This document shows positions 8,008 to 25,943 of a stretch of DNA of 25,943 nucleotides, one piece after another. Below the pieces are notes generated by a model. The model worked only from the letters and a program-made list of their open reading frames with translations. It ran no database searches and had not been told where the DNA came from. Position numbers and translations under genes: made by a program. The stretch comes from a virus. The DNA is taken from IMG/VR virus record IMGVR_UViG_3300047195_000568, positions 1-25,943 of that record, one strand, 5' to 3'. Positions within the stretch are counted from its first letter, which is position 1; every line of letters starts with the position of its first letter.

Positions 8008-9597
8008 TTAACCTTCAGACAATGCCAGAATAAATGGCGTCATTTGAGCAAATAAACTTCGATAAAAGTCTTGACCTGTAATAGTTCCTGTTGCTTGGCT
8101 AATGGTAAATCCTGACCCAACTTTGAAATTACCTTTTTGATCGGTACTGGTATAAGTTACTACTCCATAGTTAGTTTGTAATACTTCATTAGCTTCAATT
8201 GGAATTCCGCCGTATTGCGGCAAGGCCGTGGCTGGATTGATTCCAGCTCCAACATACTCAAAAGTATGGGCACTTGCGATAATAGAGCTGCGAACATAAA
8301 ATGCAACACTGGTACCAGGCGCTGCATTACCTAAATAAATTTGTTGTACTATAACCGTAGATTTACCAACACTTGGAATATTAGGCAGTATGGTATCAAT
8401 AGTATAGGCCTGTGGATCACTACCAACAAACATTAAGGTATTAACATGTGGTTCTCCGTTGGATAAATTATCAAGAACAAAAGCCCCTTGAAACTGTGAT
8501 TCAATAGTGGCTGTGGTTTGCTGTGTGCCATACCCGTCAGCCCACAATCCATAATTACCAATTGAACAATCCGATCCGTTCAAGGTACAGAAAGATCCTG
8601 ACTCAACTCTGACTCCAATATTACAAGCAATAGTATAGATATTAACTAATTGGCTGTACGCTTGATTTACCATTTTAATACCCACACCGCCTTTGTTGAT
8701 AATTGTGAAGAATCCCACAATCATGGCCTTGGTACTGGTAGGGCCGCAAGCCGCGCCGTCGATGAATACCGCAGTACCGGTGGTAGTATTAGATGTTAAA
8801 TTTTGAATATACGGGCTGACATAAGCGGTTGTTATTATGTTTGGATTATAACTAAATCCGTTGGCCAGATAGTCTCGAATAGTTATTCCCCAAACATAAC
8901 ATCCAGCACTGACATAAAATAAATCAGCACTTGGTGTCAATGGGTATATAAAAACATTACGAAGATTATCGCCCATTAAACTAACATTGGCAGGAATAGT
9001 TACTGGATTATCTTCGGTGTAATTACCTGGGGCTACATTAACAGAAACACTTCCACCAATTGCAGCTGCGGCGGCCATGGCCGCTTTAATTGTTAAAAAC
9101 GGTTGGTTTAAATTTCCATCATTAGCATCGTTACCGTTGATTGCAACAAATAATTGTCTATCACTTGCCGGTACTTTACCAAGAAAAGTGCCAGCAGTAA
9201 CATCACCAGTGACACTGACGCTGTTGCCAAAGAAATTATTGGCCGTAACATTTCCGGTGATACTAATGTTGTTTGGAAATTGAATATTACCAAAGAAATT
9301 ATCGGCTGTAACATTGCCATTAACACTGACATTGTTGGTTAAATTAATAGTACCCGTGCCGTCTGGACCAATGGTGATATTGCTATTTGCAGTATGCGAG
9401 GTAATAGAATCAACACGCATATTCCCTGCAATGTCAAGATTTGCCTGCGGTGTAGCGGTGTTTATTCCAATGACGCCGTTGGCAACATCTAAATAAAGTG
9501 TAGGTATACTGTTTGCGTTGTTGAGGAATGCTAAACTATTGCCATCTCTTACAAGATTGGACTGGAGCATTGACCCCGATATTTTACTGATTGCCAT
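8008..9597 (-). CDS. Tail fibre with right-handed beta-helix domain (529 aa)
   Basis: Residues 1-~140 form a stalk that shares the SVNGNVTADNFFGN and SVTGDVTAGTFLG type of unit with the giant fibre. A pectate-lyase-like right-handed beta-helix begins at ~146 with RQLFVAINGNDANDG, LNQPFLTIKAAMAAA, VSVNVAPGNYTE and SLMGDNLRNVFIYP. It runs through short strand-rich turns to ~440. This entry pattern (a .DGNDANDG.. .PF.TI..A segment, then a PG.Y.E..P segment) is a well-known phage and bacterial beta-helix signature. The C-terminus (KGNFKVGSGFTISQATGTI) is a conserved-looking end module. It is probably a trimeric receptor-binding or baseplate-associated fibre; no enzymatic residues are claimed. Its ribosome-binding site (GGGGAT) and start codon are buried in a perfect inverted repeat overlapping a late-promoter-like motif. 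Confidence 0.85.
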   Translation of the reverse strand: MAISKISGSMLQSNLVRDGNSLAFLNNANSIPTLYLDVANGVIGINTATPQANLDIAGNMRVDSITSHTANSNITIGPDGTGTINLTNNVSVNGNVTADNFFGNIQFPNNISITGNVTANNFFGNSVSVTGDVTAGTFLGKVPASDRQLFVAINGNDANDGNLNQPFLTIKAAMAAAAAIGGSVSVNVAPGNYTEDNPVTIPANVSLMGDNLRNVFIYPLTPSADLFYVSAGCYVWGITIRDYLANGFSYNPNIITTAYVSPYIQNLTSNTTTGTAVFIDGAACGPTSTKAMIVGFFTIINKGGVGIKMVNQAYSQLVNIYTIACNIGVRVESGSFCTLNGSDCSIGNYGLWADGYGTQQTTATIESQFQGAFVLDNLSNGEPHVNTLMFVGSDPQAYTIDTILPNIPSVGKSTVIVQQIYLGNAAPGTSVAFYVRSSIIASAHTFEYVGAGINPATALPQYGGIPIEANEVLQTNYGVVTYTSTDQKGNFKVGSGFTISQATGTITGQDFYRSLFAQMTPFILALSEG

Positions 9598-9619
9598 ATA
9601 TTATCCCCGGATAATATAT
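9596..9619 (-). promoter_or_regulatory. Inverted repeat covering the RBS and start of the beta-helix fibre gene
   Basis: Perfect 11-bp arms (plus strand ATATATTATCC at 9596-9606 and GGATAATATAT at 9609-9619) flank a 2-bp centre. On the minus-strand transcript the 3' arm contains the Shine-Dalgarno GGGGAU and the first two bases of the AUG. A read-through RNA would therefore fold into a hairpin of about ten base pairs that hides the initiation region. The inverted repeat is read directly; the regulatory role is inferred by analogy with T4 late genes. Confidence 0.75.
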
Positions 9620-9624
9620 TTAGC
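9617..9624 (-). promoter_or_regulatory. Late-promoter-like motif (GCTAAATA) overlapping the inverted repeat
   Basis: The motif overlaps the outer end of the 5' arm of the hairpin described for 9596-9619. With T4-like spacing, transcription would start near 9611, inside the 5' arm. Such an RNA would lack most of that arm and could not form the RBS-masking hairpin. Confidence 0.5.
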
Positions 9625-10360: not shown

Positions 10361-10957
10361 TTAAAATATAATGCCGTAGACTATGGCTTTGTAGTTTGCT
10401 ACAAGCTCATCAACGCCGCCTGCGGCCTCTGAGGTTGTGTATAATCCAGTCCCACCCGAACTCACCACATCGCTATAAACAACTACAGCATTGGCTACAT
10501 TAGCCGGCGGTGTAACTACATTTGTGAATACTTGATGTCCTGTTAAAGTTAATGCATTTGCAGCTTGATCAAAAGTAAGAAAAGCAGAAGCTGCAAATCC
10601 ACCTTGGTAATTGTATTGAATTTGTGTGTTGGATCCAGCCGCAGTATTACCAATATTAGAATACGCAGTAATTGGAGCACCATTGGCACTTACACTATTA
10701 CTGGTTTGCCAGGCATTAACCAAGGTATCAAATCGAAAACCAGAAAATGTACTTGGCCCAGTTTGCATTAACAAACCGCCATCGGTGATAGCCCCACTGT
10801 TATTGGCCGCTACTGTAATAAACGGCGTAGTTGTAATTGCTGGGTATGTATAGGTAACATTACCGTTAAACAATGTTTGTGCATTGATCGTGAATAATCC
10901 ATTCCCGTCATTACAGGTTAGAGTATAATCAGTGTTTACATTTTTAAATGAGGCCAT
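10361..10957 (-). CDS. Structural protein with a single fibre repeat unit (198 aa)
   Basis: The N-terminal ~95 residues (MASFKNVNTDYTLTCNDGNG, TLFNGNVTYTYPAI) are not recognised. The middle contains one clear copy of the unit repeated ten times in the 2114-aa fibre (GSNTQIQYNYQGGFAASAFL, then TFDQAANALTLTG). The C-terminus (SSGGTGLYTTSEAAGGVDEL, then VANYKAIVYGIIF) is non-repetitive. It is first in a coupled trio with the 104- and 133-aa genes and has its own exact TATAAATA motif and an AAGGAT ribosome-binding site. It is probably a virion protein of the tail or fibre system. The shared unit shows common descent or module exchange with the giant fibre. Confidence 0.75.
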   Translation of the reverse strand: MASFKNVNTDYTLTCNDGNGLFTINAQTLFNGNVTYTYPAITTTPFITVAANNSGAITDGGLLMQTGPSTFSGFRFDTLVNAWQTSNSVSANGAPITAYSNIGNTAAGSNTQIQYNYQGGFAASAFLTFDQAANALTLTGHQVFTNVVTPPANVANAVVVYSDVVSSGGTGLYTTSEAAGGVDELVANYKAIVYGIIF

Positions 10958-10975: not shown

Positions 10976-10983
10976 TATTTATA
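10976..10983 (-). promoter_or_regulatory. Late promoter, exact TATAAATA
   Basis: This is an exact match to the T4 late-promoter consensus, 18 bp before the ATG of the 198-aa gene and just downstream of the terminator at 11008-11034. It would drive the 198/104/133-aa group as an independent transcription unit. Confidence 0.65.
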
Positions 10984-11052: not shown

Positions 11053-12234
11053 TTATGGATTACTTGGTACTTGTGCCAATACAATTTGGCCAGTTCCGTT
11101 GGTAAATGTCACTGCATCTGCACCTGATTTAGCCGCGGATATAACTTCACTAGCAACAGTGAATGTTAATCCGGTGGTTTGACCAGCTGTAGAAGTTACA
11201 GCGGCACCGCCTACAGTAGCTGACAATGTAAATGTTGTTGAACCGTTTGTAGTTTTAACATAATATGTTGTTGGAGCTGCATAGCCAATGATTGTTCCAG
11301 CTGTTAATGTGTATGTTACACCAGTTGGAGTACCAGCTGTAGTTACAACAGCAGCACCGCCTAAGGTAGCAGACAATGTAAATGTTGTTGAACCGTTGGT
11401 AGCAATGATGTAGTATGTTGTTGGATCACTGTAAGCTGGAGTATCAATACTGCCTGATCCACCAAATGTACCACTAATAGTTACTTTCTGACCTACAACC
11501 ATTGGACGGGCAGTTGCAGCGCAACTAAATTGACCAGCTGTGCCAGTAATGACTACAGTTGCTAATGTTGGGTTAGTAGTTGTTCCACTAACTGTAATTG
11601 GATCATTAACTAATAAAGTACTGAATGCGGCACTACTAAATGTGCCAGCTGTTCCAGTGATATTAACATTGCCAAGAGTAGCAGTTCCAATAGTTTGTGG
11701 CTCAAAGAAGTTAACAAAATACTGAACATTGGCCTGAGCAACACCTGTTGGGAAACTTAAACCATATTTGTTAGTCAAACGCTGTAGGTATACTGTGGCA
11801 ACATTGCCTGTACCATCAGGAACACCAACACCAATACTCATTGAGTTGGCTGTTAAACTAGCATTAGCAACGTTGGCCAAAAAGCAAACGCCTGTTGCAC
11901 CACTTACTGCGCCAGTTACCAAATACTTGCTTTGGCCTTTTTGGCGTGTGATAAATGCAGCCTCTGAACCTTGTCCTGAACCATAAATGTTGGCACTTAC
12001 AGCCACAACTGGAAAAGTTGCTGTACCATCAGCCATGTTGTAATCAGCATTTGGATAGCCAGTGTTTTGTGCGTTGAGTACATTACCACCAACTACACCG
12101 TAGAAGTTAGTACCAGTTAATCCTGGAGGTGTTACAGGATTGGTCAATGTATTGATTTGTGGAAAGCCTGCATCAACTGGAAGACCAGGTGTACCTGCAT
12201 AACCTTGTTTTTGAATTTTTAGAGGACGCCCCAT
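11053..12234 (-). CDS. Repeat-containing virion-type protein (393 aa), function unknown
   Basis: The N-terminus (MGRPLKIQKQGYAGTPGLP) is basic and looks like a particle-associated start. Residues ~85-180 form a mixed domain (AFITRQKGQSKYLVTGAVSG, GVCFLANVANASL, YFVNFFEPQTIG). The C-terminal half holds two pairs of repeats: V.ITGTAG.FS...... V....(I/V)SGT, and TYY(I/V)..TNGSTTFTLSAT, then GGAAV..TAG..TG(V/L)T(Y/F)T. The last pair is separated by exactly 150 bp at DNA level. Such modules are familiar in phage structural proteins, but no function is assigned here. The gene has a strong ribosome-binding site (AAGGAG), a ~90-nt leader with a CATAAATA motif, and its own terminator. It is thus a single-gene unit likely to be strongly expressed, and a head or tail decoration role is possible. 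Confidence 0.75.
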   Translation of the reverse strand: MGRPLKIQKQGYAGTPGLPVDAGFPQINTLTNPVTPPGLTGTNFYGVVGGNVLNAQNTGYPNADYNMADGTATFPVVAVSANIYGSGQGSEAAFITRQKGQSKYLVTGAVSGATGVCFLANVANASLTANSMSIGVGVPDGTGNVATVYLQRLTNKYGLSFPTGVAQANVQYFVNFFEPQTIGTATLGNVNITGTAGTFSSAAFSTLLVNDPITVSGTTTNPTLATVVITGTAGQFSCAATARPMVVGQKVTISGTFGGSGSIDTPAYSDPTTYYIIATNGSTTFTLSATLGGAAVVTTAGTPTGVTYTLTAGTIIGYAAPTTYYVKTTNGSTTFTLSATVGGAAVTSTAGQTTGLTFTVASEVISAAKSGADAVTFTNGTGQIVLAQVPSNP

Positions 12235-12325
12235 TTTGTTTTCTCCTTAAAGAAGTCCGATGTCGGTTCTAGCGACTACGCTGTGGGTATTAGTCCCAGC
12301 ATAAAAGCACTATTGCTTGTAGAAG

Positions 12326-12333
12326 TATTTATG
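12326..12333 (-). promoter_or_regulatory. Late-promoter-like motif (CATAAATA)
   Basis: This seven-of-eight match to TATAAATA lies 91 bp upstream of the 393-aa gene start, in the divergent gap before the glycosyltransferase. It implies a leader longer than that of the other late-type genes here. Confidence 0.45.
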
Positions 12334-12382
12334 TCTGTGCCTGTTTTTTAAGGTGGCTGGTTATATAGGGTTAAATATCATC

Positions 12383-13534
12383 ATGAACACAGACGAACTA
12401 ATCACTAGAGGTAATGAATTTAGAGCTCAGAATCAGCCCGCAGAAGCATTAAAATGCTATGCTCACGCATTTGGGGAAGATATGAATTCTGTGGCTGCTT
12501 TTAACAACTATGGCAATGTACTAAGAGAGTGCGGCCATGCTAAAAGAGCTATTCCGTTTTTACAAGCCGCTATCGAAATGGCTCCGCAATTTGTTACAGC
12601 ACAGTTTAACCTGGCTGTGGCCTACTTGATTTCTGGAGATTATGCTCGCGGATGGCCACAGTATGAGTGGCGCTGGCGTTATGAGCACTTGGATGGCTTA
12701 TTGCCTAAATTTGAACAGCCTCGCTGGTCTGGTCAAGACCTCAAAGACAAAACTATTCTGGTCATTGGCGAGCAAGGGCATGGCGATAACATTCAATTTA
12801 TTAGATTTGTTGAGCCCTTGATTGCAGCTGGCGCAAAGGTCATTGTTCATGTGGATGAAAATACTGCTGTGTTATTTAGAGTAAATTTATTACCACCCAC
12901 CCAGGTAATTACCAATGCTGATCCATTACCATCATTTGATTACTGGACTCCTATAATGAGTATTCCTGGAATTATAGGCGTAACTTTAGAAAATCTGCAA
13001 CATCGTGTGCAGTATTTAACCGCTAGTAAGCAAAGTATTCAACAGTGGCAACAAACATTAGGCCCAAAAAAAGGACTACGAGTTGGTGTTTGCTGGAGTG
13101 GCCGCAAAGATTCTTGGATTAATCAACACAAGGCTATTCCATTTGCGGAAATATTTGAAGTTATCAAACGCAATCCAGAATATCACTGGATTAATTTACA
13201 AGCAGATTGTTCAGAAGAAGAAGGCGCTGCCTTGGCTGGCATTGGAGTCAGTACTTATCCAGGTGCTATTCGTAATTGGGATGATACTGCTGGGCTAATT
13301 CAACACTTAGATGTGGTCATTGCTGTGGATACTGCGGTTGGGCACCTAGCTGGAGCCATGGGTCGTCCATTCTGGTTACCGTTGAATCAGTTTGGTCAAG
13401 ATTGGCGTTGGTTGTTGGATCGTGAAGACAGTCCGTGGTATCCAACTTGCCGTATATTCCGTCAGCCTAGTCTAGGTGATTGGAATACTCCCTTAAAGAA
13501 AATTGAGCAATACTTAACTTGGTTTAAAGTATAG
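12383..13534 (+). CDS. TPR plus GT9/GT41-like glycosyltransferase (383 aa)
   Basis: This is the only plus-strand gene. Residues ~5-105 form about three TPR-like helical repeats (EFRAQNQPAEALKCYAHAF, AFNNYGNVLRECGHAKRAI, AQFNLAVAYLISGDYARGW). They are followed by the WPQYEWRWRYE linker typical of bacterial TPR-glycosyltransferase proteins. The C-terminal ~270 residues are GT-B-like: GEQGHGDNIQFIRF begins the N-lobe, and VGVCWSGRKDSW, WINLQ, DDTAGLIQHLDVVIAVDTAV, GHLAGAMGRPFW and DWRWLLDREDSPWYPT belong to the nucleotide-sugar lobe, as in heptosyltransferase-like GT9 and O-GlcNAc-transferase-like enzymes. The donor and acceptor are unknown. A GTG at 12353 would add ten residues; the ATG at 12383 is preferred because it begins the conserved region. 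It looks like a moron with its own terminator. It could glycosylate Ser/Thr-rich fibres or alter host surface glycans; both are inferences. Confidence 0.85.
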   Translation: MNTDELITRGNEFRAQNQPAEALKCYAHAFGEDMNSVAAFNNYGNVLRECGHAKRAIPFLQAAIEMAPQFVTAQFNLAVAYLISGDYARGWPQYEWRWRYEHLDGLLPKFEQPRWSGQDLKDKTILVIGEQGHGDNIQFIRFVEPLIAAGAKVIVHVDENTAVLFRVNLLPPTQVITNADPLPSFDYWTPIMSIPGIIGVTLENLQHRVQYLTASKQSIQQWQQTLGPKKGLRVGVCWSGRKDSWINQHKAIPFAEIFEVIKRNPEYHWINLQADCSEEEGAALAGIGVSTYPGAIRNWDDTAGLIQHLDVVIAVDTAVGHLAGAMGRPFWLPLNQFGQDWRWLLDREDSPWYPTCRIFRQPSLGDWNTPLKKIEQYLTWFKV

Positions 13535-23536: not shown

Positions 23537-24064
23537 TTAGCTATCTAAGCTAAATGTTACCATATAAAATTCAGTAATTTCTCCGTTGTCTGGCTTGGTC
23601 TTTTCTTTTGAAAAGCGGATATCTCCAAGCCCGCAATGATCTGGATCTTTGAGTAGAATAGCAGTCATTTCAAGAAAATCAACTACATCGTCGAGTGTTG
23701 GATACCAGTATACTTCTTCTACAAAATCTCTAACAAACAAAAATGGTATTTCTTTCTTAAACATTCTTTTGTATTTTGCCCGGTCTTTACTAGTAAGATA
23801 TACACTGATAGCGGGATCTAAATAATAATTAAGATTACGGTGCCGGCACTCTTTGGCTTCTTTCCAAGTCCACCCGTGATCTCGAACCATTGCTCGAACT
23901 TCTTTAATATCAGCAAACCAATGATTAAGATAGTTGTCCACTAACTCGTCTTCACTTTTTCGTTTTAAATGACGAATTAGTTTATTCTGAGTAGTGATAG
24001 CAGATTTACTTTTCTTTGCTGCATGTTCTGCTAATCGCATGGCCTCGTATTGTCTTGAGTTCAT
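23537..24064 (-). CDS. Unknown protein coupled to the homing endonuclease (175 aa)
   Basis: Not recognised. The 175-residue product has a basic N-terminal third (MRLAEHAAKKSKSAITTQNK, LIRHLKRKSEDELVDNYLNH) that looks helical, a central aromatic and charged part (HGWTWKEAKECRHRNLNYYL, YKRMFKKEIPFLFVRDFVEE), and a short strand-rich end (IRFSKEKTKPDNGEITEFYM). Its composition differs sharply from the Ser/Thr/Asn-rich fibres around it. Its ATG overlaps the stop of the endonuclease gene (ATGA), and a fossil endonuclease C-terminus follows its stop at once. This context suggests it moves with, or was captured by, the endonuclease element. Nucleic-acid binding is possible from the basic N-terminus but not shown. 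Confidence 0.75.
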   Translation of the reverse strand: MNSRQYEAMRLAEHAAKKSKSAITTQNKLIRHLKRKSEDELVDNYLNHWFADIKEVRAMVRDHGWTWKEAKECRHRNLNYYLDPAISVYLTSKDRAKYKRMFKKEIPFLFVRDFVEEVYWYPTLDDVVDFLEMTAILLKDPDHCGLGDIRFSKEKTKPDNGEITEFYMVTFSLDS

Positions 24065-24867
24065 TGGGTTTCCTTGCTAGGATTTTGTCGACAACGATCA
24101 GCATGCCAGCGGGTGTACATGCTTACGCTTGCAGTTTTACCACAATGCTCGCAAGTTTTCATCATTTGACTTGGATGAGTTCCAGCAGCAAGTCTATCTA
24201 AATTTGAACTTGGCCCAAGTAAATTATGTGTACCAGCTTTGATTCGGTTGGCATTGTGTTCAGAGCCAAGTAAATTGTGTGTACCGGCCTCTATTAACTT
24301 TTTGTTTAACTTGCCACCAGCGTTAGGGCTGTTACCATTTTGCCAGTGGTGTATTCCCGCTTTGCTACGCCATATACTTGGATTGTTAGTTAAGTTAATA
24401 TGCGTACCATTGGCTATTGCTGTTTTGGCATTACGGCCATCTTTATTGGGATTGCGGTCGCCTTGTAAATTATGCTTACCTTCTTGAACTAATTTATTTT
24501 GTTTTTGTCTTAAGATATCAACAGATTCAAAATTAGTTTTGGTCCAATGATTATCTCCGGCAATTTTTGCCGCTACGCTTGGGTCTTTCATTGGATTGCT
24601 ATCTGTATCAAATCCAACAGGGTCCGCGGTGCGATTCATACATCCTGGCTTACCATAGTGTTCTAGCAAGTATTGACCTTCAAGTGCTTTTACCTGGTCA
24701 ACTGAATCGGCATATTCAAGTATTTCTCGGGTCAGAGTAGATTTATCTTTTATAGAACTGGGCCATAGTCCCGAACCAACATATCCATCGTTGATGTTTT
24801 TTGTACTATGTCTTCCAATATAGTATTTGCCGTTTGTGTGAGTTGTTTTGTATATAAAGTGTTTCAT
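24061..24867 (-). CDS. GIY-YIG homing endonuclease with NUMOD-like repeats and zinc-finger end (268 aa)
   Basis: Residues 1-~85 form a GIY-YIG nuclease domain: FIYKTT (GIY position), YYIGRHST (YIG, with Arg19), DGYVGSG, and Glu63 in KALEGQYLLEHYG as the likely metal-binding residue. The middle holds short DNA-binding repeats of NUMOD type (GKHNLQGDRNPNK, GIHHWQNGNSPNAGG, GTHNLLGSEHNANRI, GTHNLLGPSSN, GTHPSQMM). The C-terminus is a zinc-finger-like CEHC, twelve residues, then H...C. The frame is open upstream to 25074, but that would overlap gp23 and its terminator; I chose the ATG at 24867, where the nuclease fold begins (MKHFIYKTTHTNGKYYIG). The ribosome-binding site is weak. Such genes are selfish, typically cutting cognate DNA near their insertion site. 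The position beside gp23 suggests a conserved capsid-region target. Confidence 0.9.
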   Translation of the reverse strand: MKHFIYKTTHTNGKYYIGRHSTKNINDGYVGSGLWPSSIKDKSTLTREILEYADSVDQVKALEGQYLLEHYGKPGCMNRTADPVGFDTDSNPMKDPSVAAKIAGDNHWTKTNFESVDILRQKQNKLVQEGKHNLQGDRNPNKDGRNAKTAIANGTHINLTNNPSIWRSKAGIHHWQNGNSPNAGGKLNKKLIEAGTHNLLGSEHNANRIKAGTHNLLGPSSNLDRLAAGTHPSQMMKTCEHCGKTASVSMYTRWHADRCRQNPSKETQ

Positions 24868-24872
24868 ACTTT

Positions 24873-24880
24873 TATTTAGC
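24873..24880 (-). promoter_or_regulatory. Late-promoter-like motif (GCTAAATA) very close to the endonuclease start
   Basis: The motif ends only 5 bp before the chosen ATG. With T4-like spacing the RNA would begin at or inside the start codon, so it is either a leaderless promoter, a chance match, or a sign that the true start is further in. Confidence 0.3.
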
Positions 24881-24946
24881 ATAGTCCGTAGCATTACTAA
24901 AGATAATACACTCAAAACATACCTTTTGTCAACTAATTTGGCCAAC

Positions 24947-24970
24947 AAAAAAGGACCTTTCGGTCCTTTT
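24947..24970 (-). terminator. Rho-independent terminator after gp23
   Basis: AAGGACC (24951-24957) pairs with GGTCCTT (24962-24968) around a TTTC loop. A run of A on the plus strand (24947-24952) gives a U tract in leftward RNA. It lies about 50 bp beyond the gp23 stop. Confidence 0.88.
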
Positions 24971-25021
24971 CTGCAACTTCCCATCCCTGGGTTGTTTACT
25001 ACTATTTGTACTGCGTTTGGA

Positions 25022-25943
25022 TCAACTAAAGCTAAGGTTCTGAACTGCAATTTCGCCAACGTAATCGGCTGCATTCCCGAAACTCGATGCGGTGTTTGTC
25101 AATTCGACAAAACCGTAACGAGTCATAAAGCTAACTACTGGTTCGAAACTATTTGGATCCAATACAACGCCACTACTCATCAGCGGAATGTATGGGCAAT
25201 AGAACGCAGCGGCATCAGCCTCTGAAGAACCTTTGTAACCAACCAATACTGATTGTGTATCTGGAGCATAGCTGTTTACAAACACACGCATTGCGCCATT
25301 CAATGTACCAACAAACTTGGTGTTTGTAGGAGCTTCGAATGTGCCTTCTGTTGTGCGAGCAAAAGCTGATGTTGTTGCACTTTGCAATACTGTCAAAGCA
25401 GCTGAACTTACAACAGCCCAGTTACCAGCGCCACGACGTGTACGCTGAGCAATCAAGTTAGCAACGCGGTTGATCAACACTGCCAAAGCGGCATGCTCAT
25501 CACCAACGAATGTTGCTGTACCAGATACAGTAGCTTGGTTGTATGTGTACTCAGTTGCAGCCAAAGAACTCAGACTCAAGAGGATCTCTTGGTCGATTTC
25601 AGCTGTGATTTCTTGAGCCAAAGCAGCCATAATTTCTGCTTCAACATCAATACCATGCATAGCTTGAGCATCTTGTGCTGATTCAAATGTCCAACGAGCT
25701 TGTAACTTGCGAGTCTTAGCTTCAACTGCTTGTTTCAAGATCTGGATGGAGATCTGCTTACCGCCTGTACCTTCCATTGTACTTGTGTTATTACCAGTGT
25801 ATCCAGTAGCTGGAGTAACTTGGTCATAAGGTACTGTGGAATATGCTGTAGCAATGGTGAATGGGCTTAGGGCTTCTTGACCAGCTGTTACAGAAGTAGC
25901 GGCTAATGAATTGTCTTGTAAACTTTGTGCATAGCGAACACGC
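25022..25943 (-). CDS. 23: Major capsid protein gp23, C-terminal part (5' end cut by window edge)
   Basis: The last ~306 residues of a T4-type major capsid protein are encoded; the frame enters from the window edge at RVRYAQSLQDNSLAATSVT, so the listed start is not the gene start. Family hallmarks are ISIQILKQAVEAKTRKLQAR followed by WTFESAQDAQAMHGIDVEAE (T4 gp23: I....K..V.AK.RKL.A.WT.E.AQD..A.HG.D.E.E), RTRRGAGNWAVVSS, VLVGYKGSSEADAAAFYCPY, VVLDPNSFEPVVSFMTRYGF and a short VGEIAVQNLSFS end. It builds the hexameric head shell. The whole T4 protein is about 520 residues, so somewhat over half is present. The N-terminal cleavage region is outside the window. A strong terminator follows. Confidence 0.95.
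   Translation of the reverse strand, partial: RVRYAQSLQDNSLAATSVTAGQEALSPFTIATAYSTVPYDQVTPATGYTGNNTSTMEGTGGKQISIQILKQAVEAKTRKLQARWTFESAQDAQAMHGIDVEAEIMAALAQEITAEIDQEILLSLSSLAATEYTYNQATVSGTATFVGDEHAALAVLINRVANLIAQRTRRGAGNWAVVSSAALTVLQSATTSAFARTTEGTFEAPTNTKFVGTLNGAMRVFVNSYAPDTQSVLVGYKGSSEADAAAFYCPYIPLMSSGVVLDPNSFEPVVSFMTRYGFVELTNTASSFGNAADYVGEIAVQNLSFS

Follow-up and report, generated by a model that had tools for sequence, protein, structure and literature searches.

A putative RNA switch of the T4 late-gene kind at a phage tail fibre gene, with predicted masking of ribosome-binding sites in related phages

Masked ribosome-binding sites in T4-like phages and the fibre locus

In gene e (lysozyme) of phage T4, a late promoter lies beside the ribosome-binding site (RBS); RNA reading through from upstream forms a helix over the RBS, and the late RNA, which lacks the 5' strand of that helix, is translated (PMC3014915). 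T4 soc also has an RBS-masking RNA helix (PMC3014915). The RBS of I-TevI is held in a hairpin that is relieved by a late promoter, and similar arrangements have been reported for I-TevII, segB, and Aeh1 mobE (PMC2988022). Between them, two sources (PMC3014915 and PMC2988022) describe I-TevI, I-TevII, gene 49, and gene e as masked.

We analyzed a complete IMG/VR virus record of 25,943 bp (hereafter the window), in which an 11-bp inverted repeat covers the start of a gene for a tail-fibre-like protein. Like T4 gene e, the fibre gene has a late promoter motif adjoining an RBS that is predicted to be masked in read-through RNA only; gene e, however, guards lysis against early RNA, whereas the fibre gene sits in a virion cluster whose upstream genes have late-type promoters. 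The hairpin around the RBS recalls T4 I-TevI, I-TevII, and segB and Aeh1 mobE, and relatives of the window likewise have such hairpins before GIY-YIG and HNH genes, but the masked gene in the window encodes a virion protein. T4 soc shares this last property, being a virion protein gene with an RBS-masking helix; unlike gene e, it was not among the top T4 matches listed in our masking test. We consider it probable that the repeat acts in cis as an RNA switch like those of T4 late genes, a reading that draws on the sequence itself, an asymmetry of folding in silico, recurrence and covariation in relatives, and a late sigma factor encoded by those relatives.

The fibre protein carries a DUF1565 region (PF07602) and a MAISKI-type N-terminus. 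Read-through RNA would include the hairpin, as the stop of a same-strand gene lies 37 nt upstream of the fibre start, and a TAAATA further upstream is likely a promoter of late type for RNA reading into the fibre gene (Table 1). The major head protein fragment of the window matches phrog_138 and is closest to those of the large phages Phosso, Vibrio 2.275.O, and PA5oct (71–75% identity); by sequence likeness, the window phage is among the jumbo-type phages of the T4 superfamily. A gp55-type late sigma factor (phrog_234) is encoded by 11 of the 16 related records, the other five of which may be incomplete; in the window, which is a fragment of 26 kb, we saw no gp55 gene. Genes were called by a simple open-reading-frame scan, in which a homing-endonuclease-like ORF (phrog_314) overlaps the major head protein gene by 53 nt, its start lying within the 3' end of that gene.

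Table 1. Features of the fibre locus and neighbouring elements in the window
Feature	Position	Strand	Sequence or basis
Inverted-repeat locus, strand as read	9624-9594	-	GCTAAATATATTATCCGGGGATAATATATGG
Late-promoter motif GCTAAATA	9617..9624	-	Position in window; Aeh1 consensus (PMC2988020)
5' arm AUAUAUUAUCC	9609..9619	-	Repeat search and leader folding
Predicted late transcription start (+1)	9611	-	Six nt after last A of motif, T4 spacing (PMC2988020)
Ribosome-binding site GGGGAT	9603..9608	-	Read from sequence
3' arm GGAUAAUAUAU	9596..9606	-	Repeat search and leader folding
Start codon ATG of fibre ORF	9597-9595	-	Read from sequence
Putatively controlled gene, 529-aa tail-fibre-like protein	8008..9597	-	phrog_17885 tail fiber protein 3.8e-64; PF07602 1.5e-8
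Upstream gene, 133 aa	9635..10036	-	Weak tail/fibre matches
TAAATA before gene 10361-10957	10976..10981	-	Motif search
phrog_314 ORF and phrog_138 gene, which overlap by 53 nt	24061-25777	-	ORF list and profile matches

Inverted repeat, late-promoter motif, and leader folding

The initial annotation had described a perfect 11-bp repeat with a 2-bp centre over the RBS and the AT of the start codon, and a late-promoter motif over the outer end of its 5' arm. Both descriptions hold, and the repeat itself is real: the arms are 100% complementary with 2 nt between them, the 5' arm starts inside GCTAAATA and almost all of it precedes the predicted +1, and the 3' arm takes in the AU of the start codon together with part of the RBS. 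This RBS differs from the AGGAT(A/T) form at other starts of the window, and GGATAA is a recurrent RBS in this phage. Because a 2-nt loop is impossible in RNA, the predicted hairpin has 10 bp closed by CGGG, which splits the RBS between the loop and the 3' arm; its stem is A+U-rich and moderately stable, the predicted fold of the 52-nt leader having a minimum free energy of -10.2 kcal/mol.

No other perfect repeat of at least 11 bp with a loop of 2–20 nt occurs in the 25,943 bases. In 60 dinucleotide-preserving shuffles of the window, the mean number of such repeats was 0.12 and at least one appeared in 6/60, giving a chance of about 0.1 for a repeat anywhere in the window; with its location on one of 14 gene starts included (14 starts × ~25 nt of 25,943), we estimate about 0.001–0.002. 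Rfam has no family for the fibre-leader element, a search with the DNA pattern of the hairpin matched only four contigs, two of them already known, and a DNA similarity search of the region against phages returned only short matches of 71–73%.

At -13/-12, GCTAAATA has GC, as in the Aeromonas phage Aeh1, whose late consensus has a/gC at these positions (PMC2988020); otherwise it is the T4 late box, and by this consensus match a gp55-type promoter would lie directly upstream of the RBS. The count of the motif in the window is not significant (3 found, 1.7 expected); what matters is its position, the first T of TAAATA being 25 nt before the fibre ATG. In related phages, TAAATA 20–34 nt before an ATG was found 192 times on the sense strand versus 18 times on the other strand, indicating that it behaves as a late-promoter element. 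From the T4 spacing we infer a start at 9611. A second sharp TAAATA peak in the relatives, 10–13 nt before the ATG with a mode of 11 (70 sense versus 9 antisense), gives independent, though indirect, support for a +1 at the first T + 11.

An RBS-like motif precedes only 16 of the 75 starts in the relatives with TAAATA 9–15 nt before the ATG, and those with TAAATA at 10–13 nt, where the predicted +1 falls on or beside the AUG, are candidates for leaderless late mRNAs. T4, KVP40, PA5oct, and Phosso show no such peak; HTVC008M (7) and cyanophages (6) have a small one. The window has a TAAATA of this spacing at 12372-12385 (+), before a TPR/glycosyltransferase-like ORF with its ATG at 12383. Nearby, an Rfam freshwater-2 RNA (RF02980, 60.7 bits) at 12232-12319 (-) extends from one base past the predicted +1 of a TAAATA at 12326-12331 to the start codon of gene 11053-12234; the freshwater-2 motif looks like the 5' leader of a late phage transcript.

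We quantified masking as the opening cost, the free energy needed to open positions -13 to +3 in the predicted RNA. As the initial annotation had anticipated, read-through and late RNA differ sharply when folded in silico: the cost at the fibre RBS and start falls from 10.7 kcal/mol in the long RNA, where the RBS and/or AUG is sequestered in a helix, to 0.5 kcal/mol in RNA from +1 = 9611, which lacks the 5' strand and leaves the RBS free. The other late leaders in the window cost 3.0–5.7 kcal/mol. Taken singly, the fibre leader is moderately unusual, as 1 of 60 swapped upstream halves equals it (about p = 0.02).

Masked late leaders and covariation in related phages

Across related phage records, we defined a late leader as one with TAAATA 20–40 nt before an ATG that has an RBS-like GGA, AGG, GAG, or GGG. 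Removal of near-duplicates left 167 late leaders, the window included, which even after this clustering remain partly interdependent. As a null, upstream halves (30 nt, motif, and 5 nt) were exchanged between genes, keeping motif, composition, and RBS. The mean opening cost was 5.22 kcal/mol versus 4.16 in swaps (sd of null means 0.17), and 1.63 for the versions truncated at +1. The excess was pronounced in the tail: 36 leaders had a cost of at least 8 kcal/mol (11.3 in swaps and 14.5 when each leader's own upstream half was shuffled), 19/167 at least 10 (3.1 in swaps, maximum 7 in 60 rounds; 4.9 in shuffles, maximum 10), and 9 at least 12 (0.8 in swaps). Leaders without TAAATA (n = 330) averaged 4.91 versus 4.83, with a mild excess at costs of at least 10 (19 versus 12.2, maximum 20). 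Positions pairing with the RBS showed only a small enrichment, 5–10 nt before TAAATA and 1–3 nt before the predicted +1.

With T4 as a positive control, I-TevI, I-TevII, gene 49, and gene e were among the top six; the matches were assigned to these genes from their N-termini, lengths, and map places. Costs of at least 10 were also in excess in the isolated jumbo phages PA5oct (4 versus 0.53) and Phosso (13 versus 2.75, maximum 8). No clear masking excess was seen in the cyanophages S-PM2, SynMITS9220M01, Syn9, and P-SSM2, the pelagiphage HTVC008M, or the vibriophage KVP40, so the device does not extend to every T4-like phage. Three sites in Phosso, a culturable Sinorhizobium phage, have very strong hairpins whose loop contains TAAATA and whose 3' arm contains the RBS: L432:9945 (+), L427:10894 (+), and L441:4311 (+); one example reads AATCTCCTTTCCTGGtaaataCAGGAAAGGAGATT.

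We called a case strong when the gain was at least 6 kcal/mol with a swap p of at most 0.05, finding 29 such cases, some of which will be chance, since about 5% of 167 leaders are expected to pass p ≤ 0.05. The strong cases that were checked include tail fibres, a virion structural protein, and four endonucleases, GIY-YIG and HNH types among them. A baseplate wedge gene (phrog_10646), with homologs in two phages, and the head-tail adaptor Ad2 (phrog_211) are also among the strong cases, and for both the hairpins differ between homologs. Ad2-like genes in L074:1539-2672 (-), L088 (-; assigned by sequence likeness only), and L105:15240-16001 (+) each have their own RBS-masking hairpin, lying round or after TAAATA. 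The initial annotation had taken the switch as specific to this fibre: this is accurate inside the window, where the other late leaders cost less, but not among relatives, where other fibres, the baseplate wedge, the head-tail adaptor, and homing endonucleases have masked starts too. In a literature search that covered few subscription journals, we found no paper describing such masking for fibre or baseplate genes.

These distributions bear on whether the fibre repeat is a functionless accident, an A+U-rich stretch after the promoter that happens to complement a GGATAA-type RBS. The modest rarity of this one leader among swaps leaves room for such an accident, and since GGATAA recurs as an RBS in the phage, half of the match needs only TTATCC. 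Against it stand the excess found throughout the group in late leaders, in relatives as in PA5oct and Phosso, the uniqueness of the repeat in the window, and the covariation and retention of masking in most homologs described below, and we consider it unlikely.

Ten distinct homologous fibre leaders, including that of the window, have TAAATA, and nine of them have an RBS hairpin (the window, L002, L078, L247, L249, L250, L257, L260, and L302; not clear in L004), retaining an anti-SD just after or round TAAATA. The pairings vary: UAUUAUC/GAUAAUA in the window, UUAUC/GAUAA in L002, CCC-GUAU-CAUA around the box in L078, CCCUA/UAGGG in L247, CCCU/AGGG in L260, and AUCCU/AGGGAU in L250. The stems of L249, L250, and L257 have only 3–6 bp and may be weak in vivo. 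Homologs lacking TAAATA cost 1.7–5.2 kcal/mol (L005, L254, L054, and L266, with no clear hairpin in L254 and L054), yet L246, also lacking TAAATA, is nonetheless masked (8.9 kcal/mol). Compensatory change in the arms, proposed as a check in the initial annotation, gave a divided answer. In L002, two outer pairs of the 11 are lost and uncompensated, but 5 bp over the RBS persist as a core; L078 has a different helix in its place, masking the same RBS. Masking is thus kept though the exact stem of the window is not.

Covariation was strong and clear in leaders of a sister fibre family, MxQQIINVG, and not for the exact stem of the window. The N-terminus of this family resembles that of T4-type baseplate proteins annotated gp9/gp10, and in its leaders the loop contains TAAATA and the 3' arm the RBS. 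The arms change in step: UCUGG/CCAGA (L203), CUCUGC/GCAGAG (L215), CUUUAGC/GCUAAAG (L241), UUUCCCGC/GCGGGAAG (L170), and also CCCGC/GCGGG round TAAATA. Over 30 distinct leaders, the longest uninterrupted helix averaged 6.1 bp versus 4.18 with swapped 5' arms, the best of 500 swaps reaching 4.97. RBS-masking helices contained 55 G.U pairs versus 35.7 in swaps (maximum 44), and 55 A.C mismatches, potential pairs on the opposite strand, versus 47.5 (maximum 54); the larger G.U excess modestly favours sense-strand RNA over a DNA palindrome.

A DNA palindrome is what would be expected if the repeat were an operator that binds a dimeric repressor and blocks late transcription, as I-TevI does. The overlap of repeat and promoter fits an operator, and the I-TevI operator occupies such a place (PMC2988022). 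The arms, however, differ between homologs and genes while their complementarity stays, G.U pairs are the more enriched class, and the test that revealed the excess scores RBS masking specifically; an operator is quite improbable.

Proposed mechanism and its reach

In 27 of the 29 strong cases, a same-strand upstream reading frame ends within 400 nt. None of these 27 hairpins has an upstream stop within 20 nt of the start, versus 12/121 other late leaders, which makes read-through plausible and disfavours opening by upstream ribosomes. Coupling by upstream ribosomes was accordingly set aside as disfavoured.

The same counts weigh against a hairpin present in all transcripts, an RNA thermometer or coupled switch with the true start further upstream. 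The +1 is a predicted position and the A+U-rich stem has only moderate stability, as such a hairpin would have it, but in one hairpin after another the TAAATA spacing puts +1 within the 5' arm or beyond it, and the 11-nt spacing peak of other genes indicates +1 = first T + 11. We regard a hairpin in all transcripts as very unlikely. An intrinsic terminator of the upstream gene, overlapping the start by coincidence, would explain a hairpin between two genes, but the stem is A+U-rich, overlaps the start codon, and is followed by no U run, and this scarcely credible reading was rejected.

For a switch of the T4 late-gene kind, we infer the start site, the read-through, the repression, and its benefit as follows. 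RNA from the upstream genes would carry both arms, close the RBS and start codon in the 10-bp hairpin, and be hardly translated. RNA from the fibre gene's own late promoter would begin inside the 5' arm, at about 9611, where the stem is impossible, and would be translated. Fibre synthesis would then depend on the gene's own gp55-type promoter and be shielded from the transcription of neighbouring genes. The interpretation in the initial annotation is partly supported: the masking mechanism has good comparative support, from the folding asymmetry, the excess in late leaders, the re-pairing in homologs, and the T4 cases. The analogy to the T4 timing, early versus late, was not upheld: the same-strand upstream genes have their own late-type TAAATA, read-through RNA may itself be late, and it may be other late transcription, not early transcription, that the switch insulates the fibre gene from.

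By sequence, the device appears to be used at roughly 10–15% of late leaders in this phage group. We hold it evenly balanced whether promoter-relieved masking is a general layer of control in the group, PA5oct and Phosso included, in which about 1 in 7–10 late leaders would have an independently evolved hairpin, often with the promoter box in its loop, restricting translation of a virion or endonuclease gene to that gene's own late transcript, also against late read-through. Until now only a few genes were known to carry the T4 switch. Should the comparative signal hold up, environmental and jumbo phages of the T4 superfamily have reinvented this control point widely, for fibre and assembly proteins and also for homing endonucleases, and encode promoter and anti-RBS together in one stretch of ~25 bases. 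This would provide a testable rule for which cistrons of an operon are translated from which transcript, and it points to phages that can be cultured, Phosso on Sinorhizobium meliloti and PA5oct on Pseudomonas aeruginosa PAO1.
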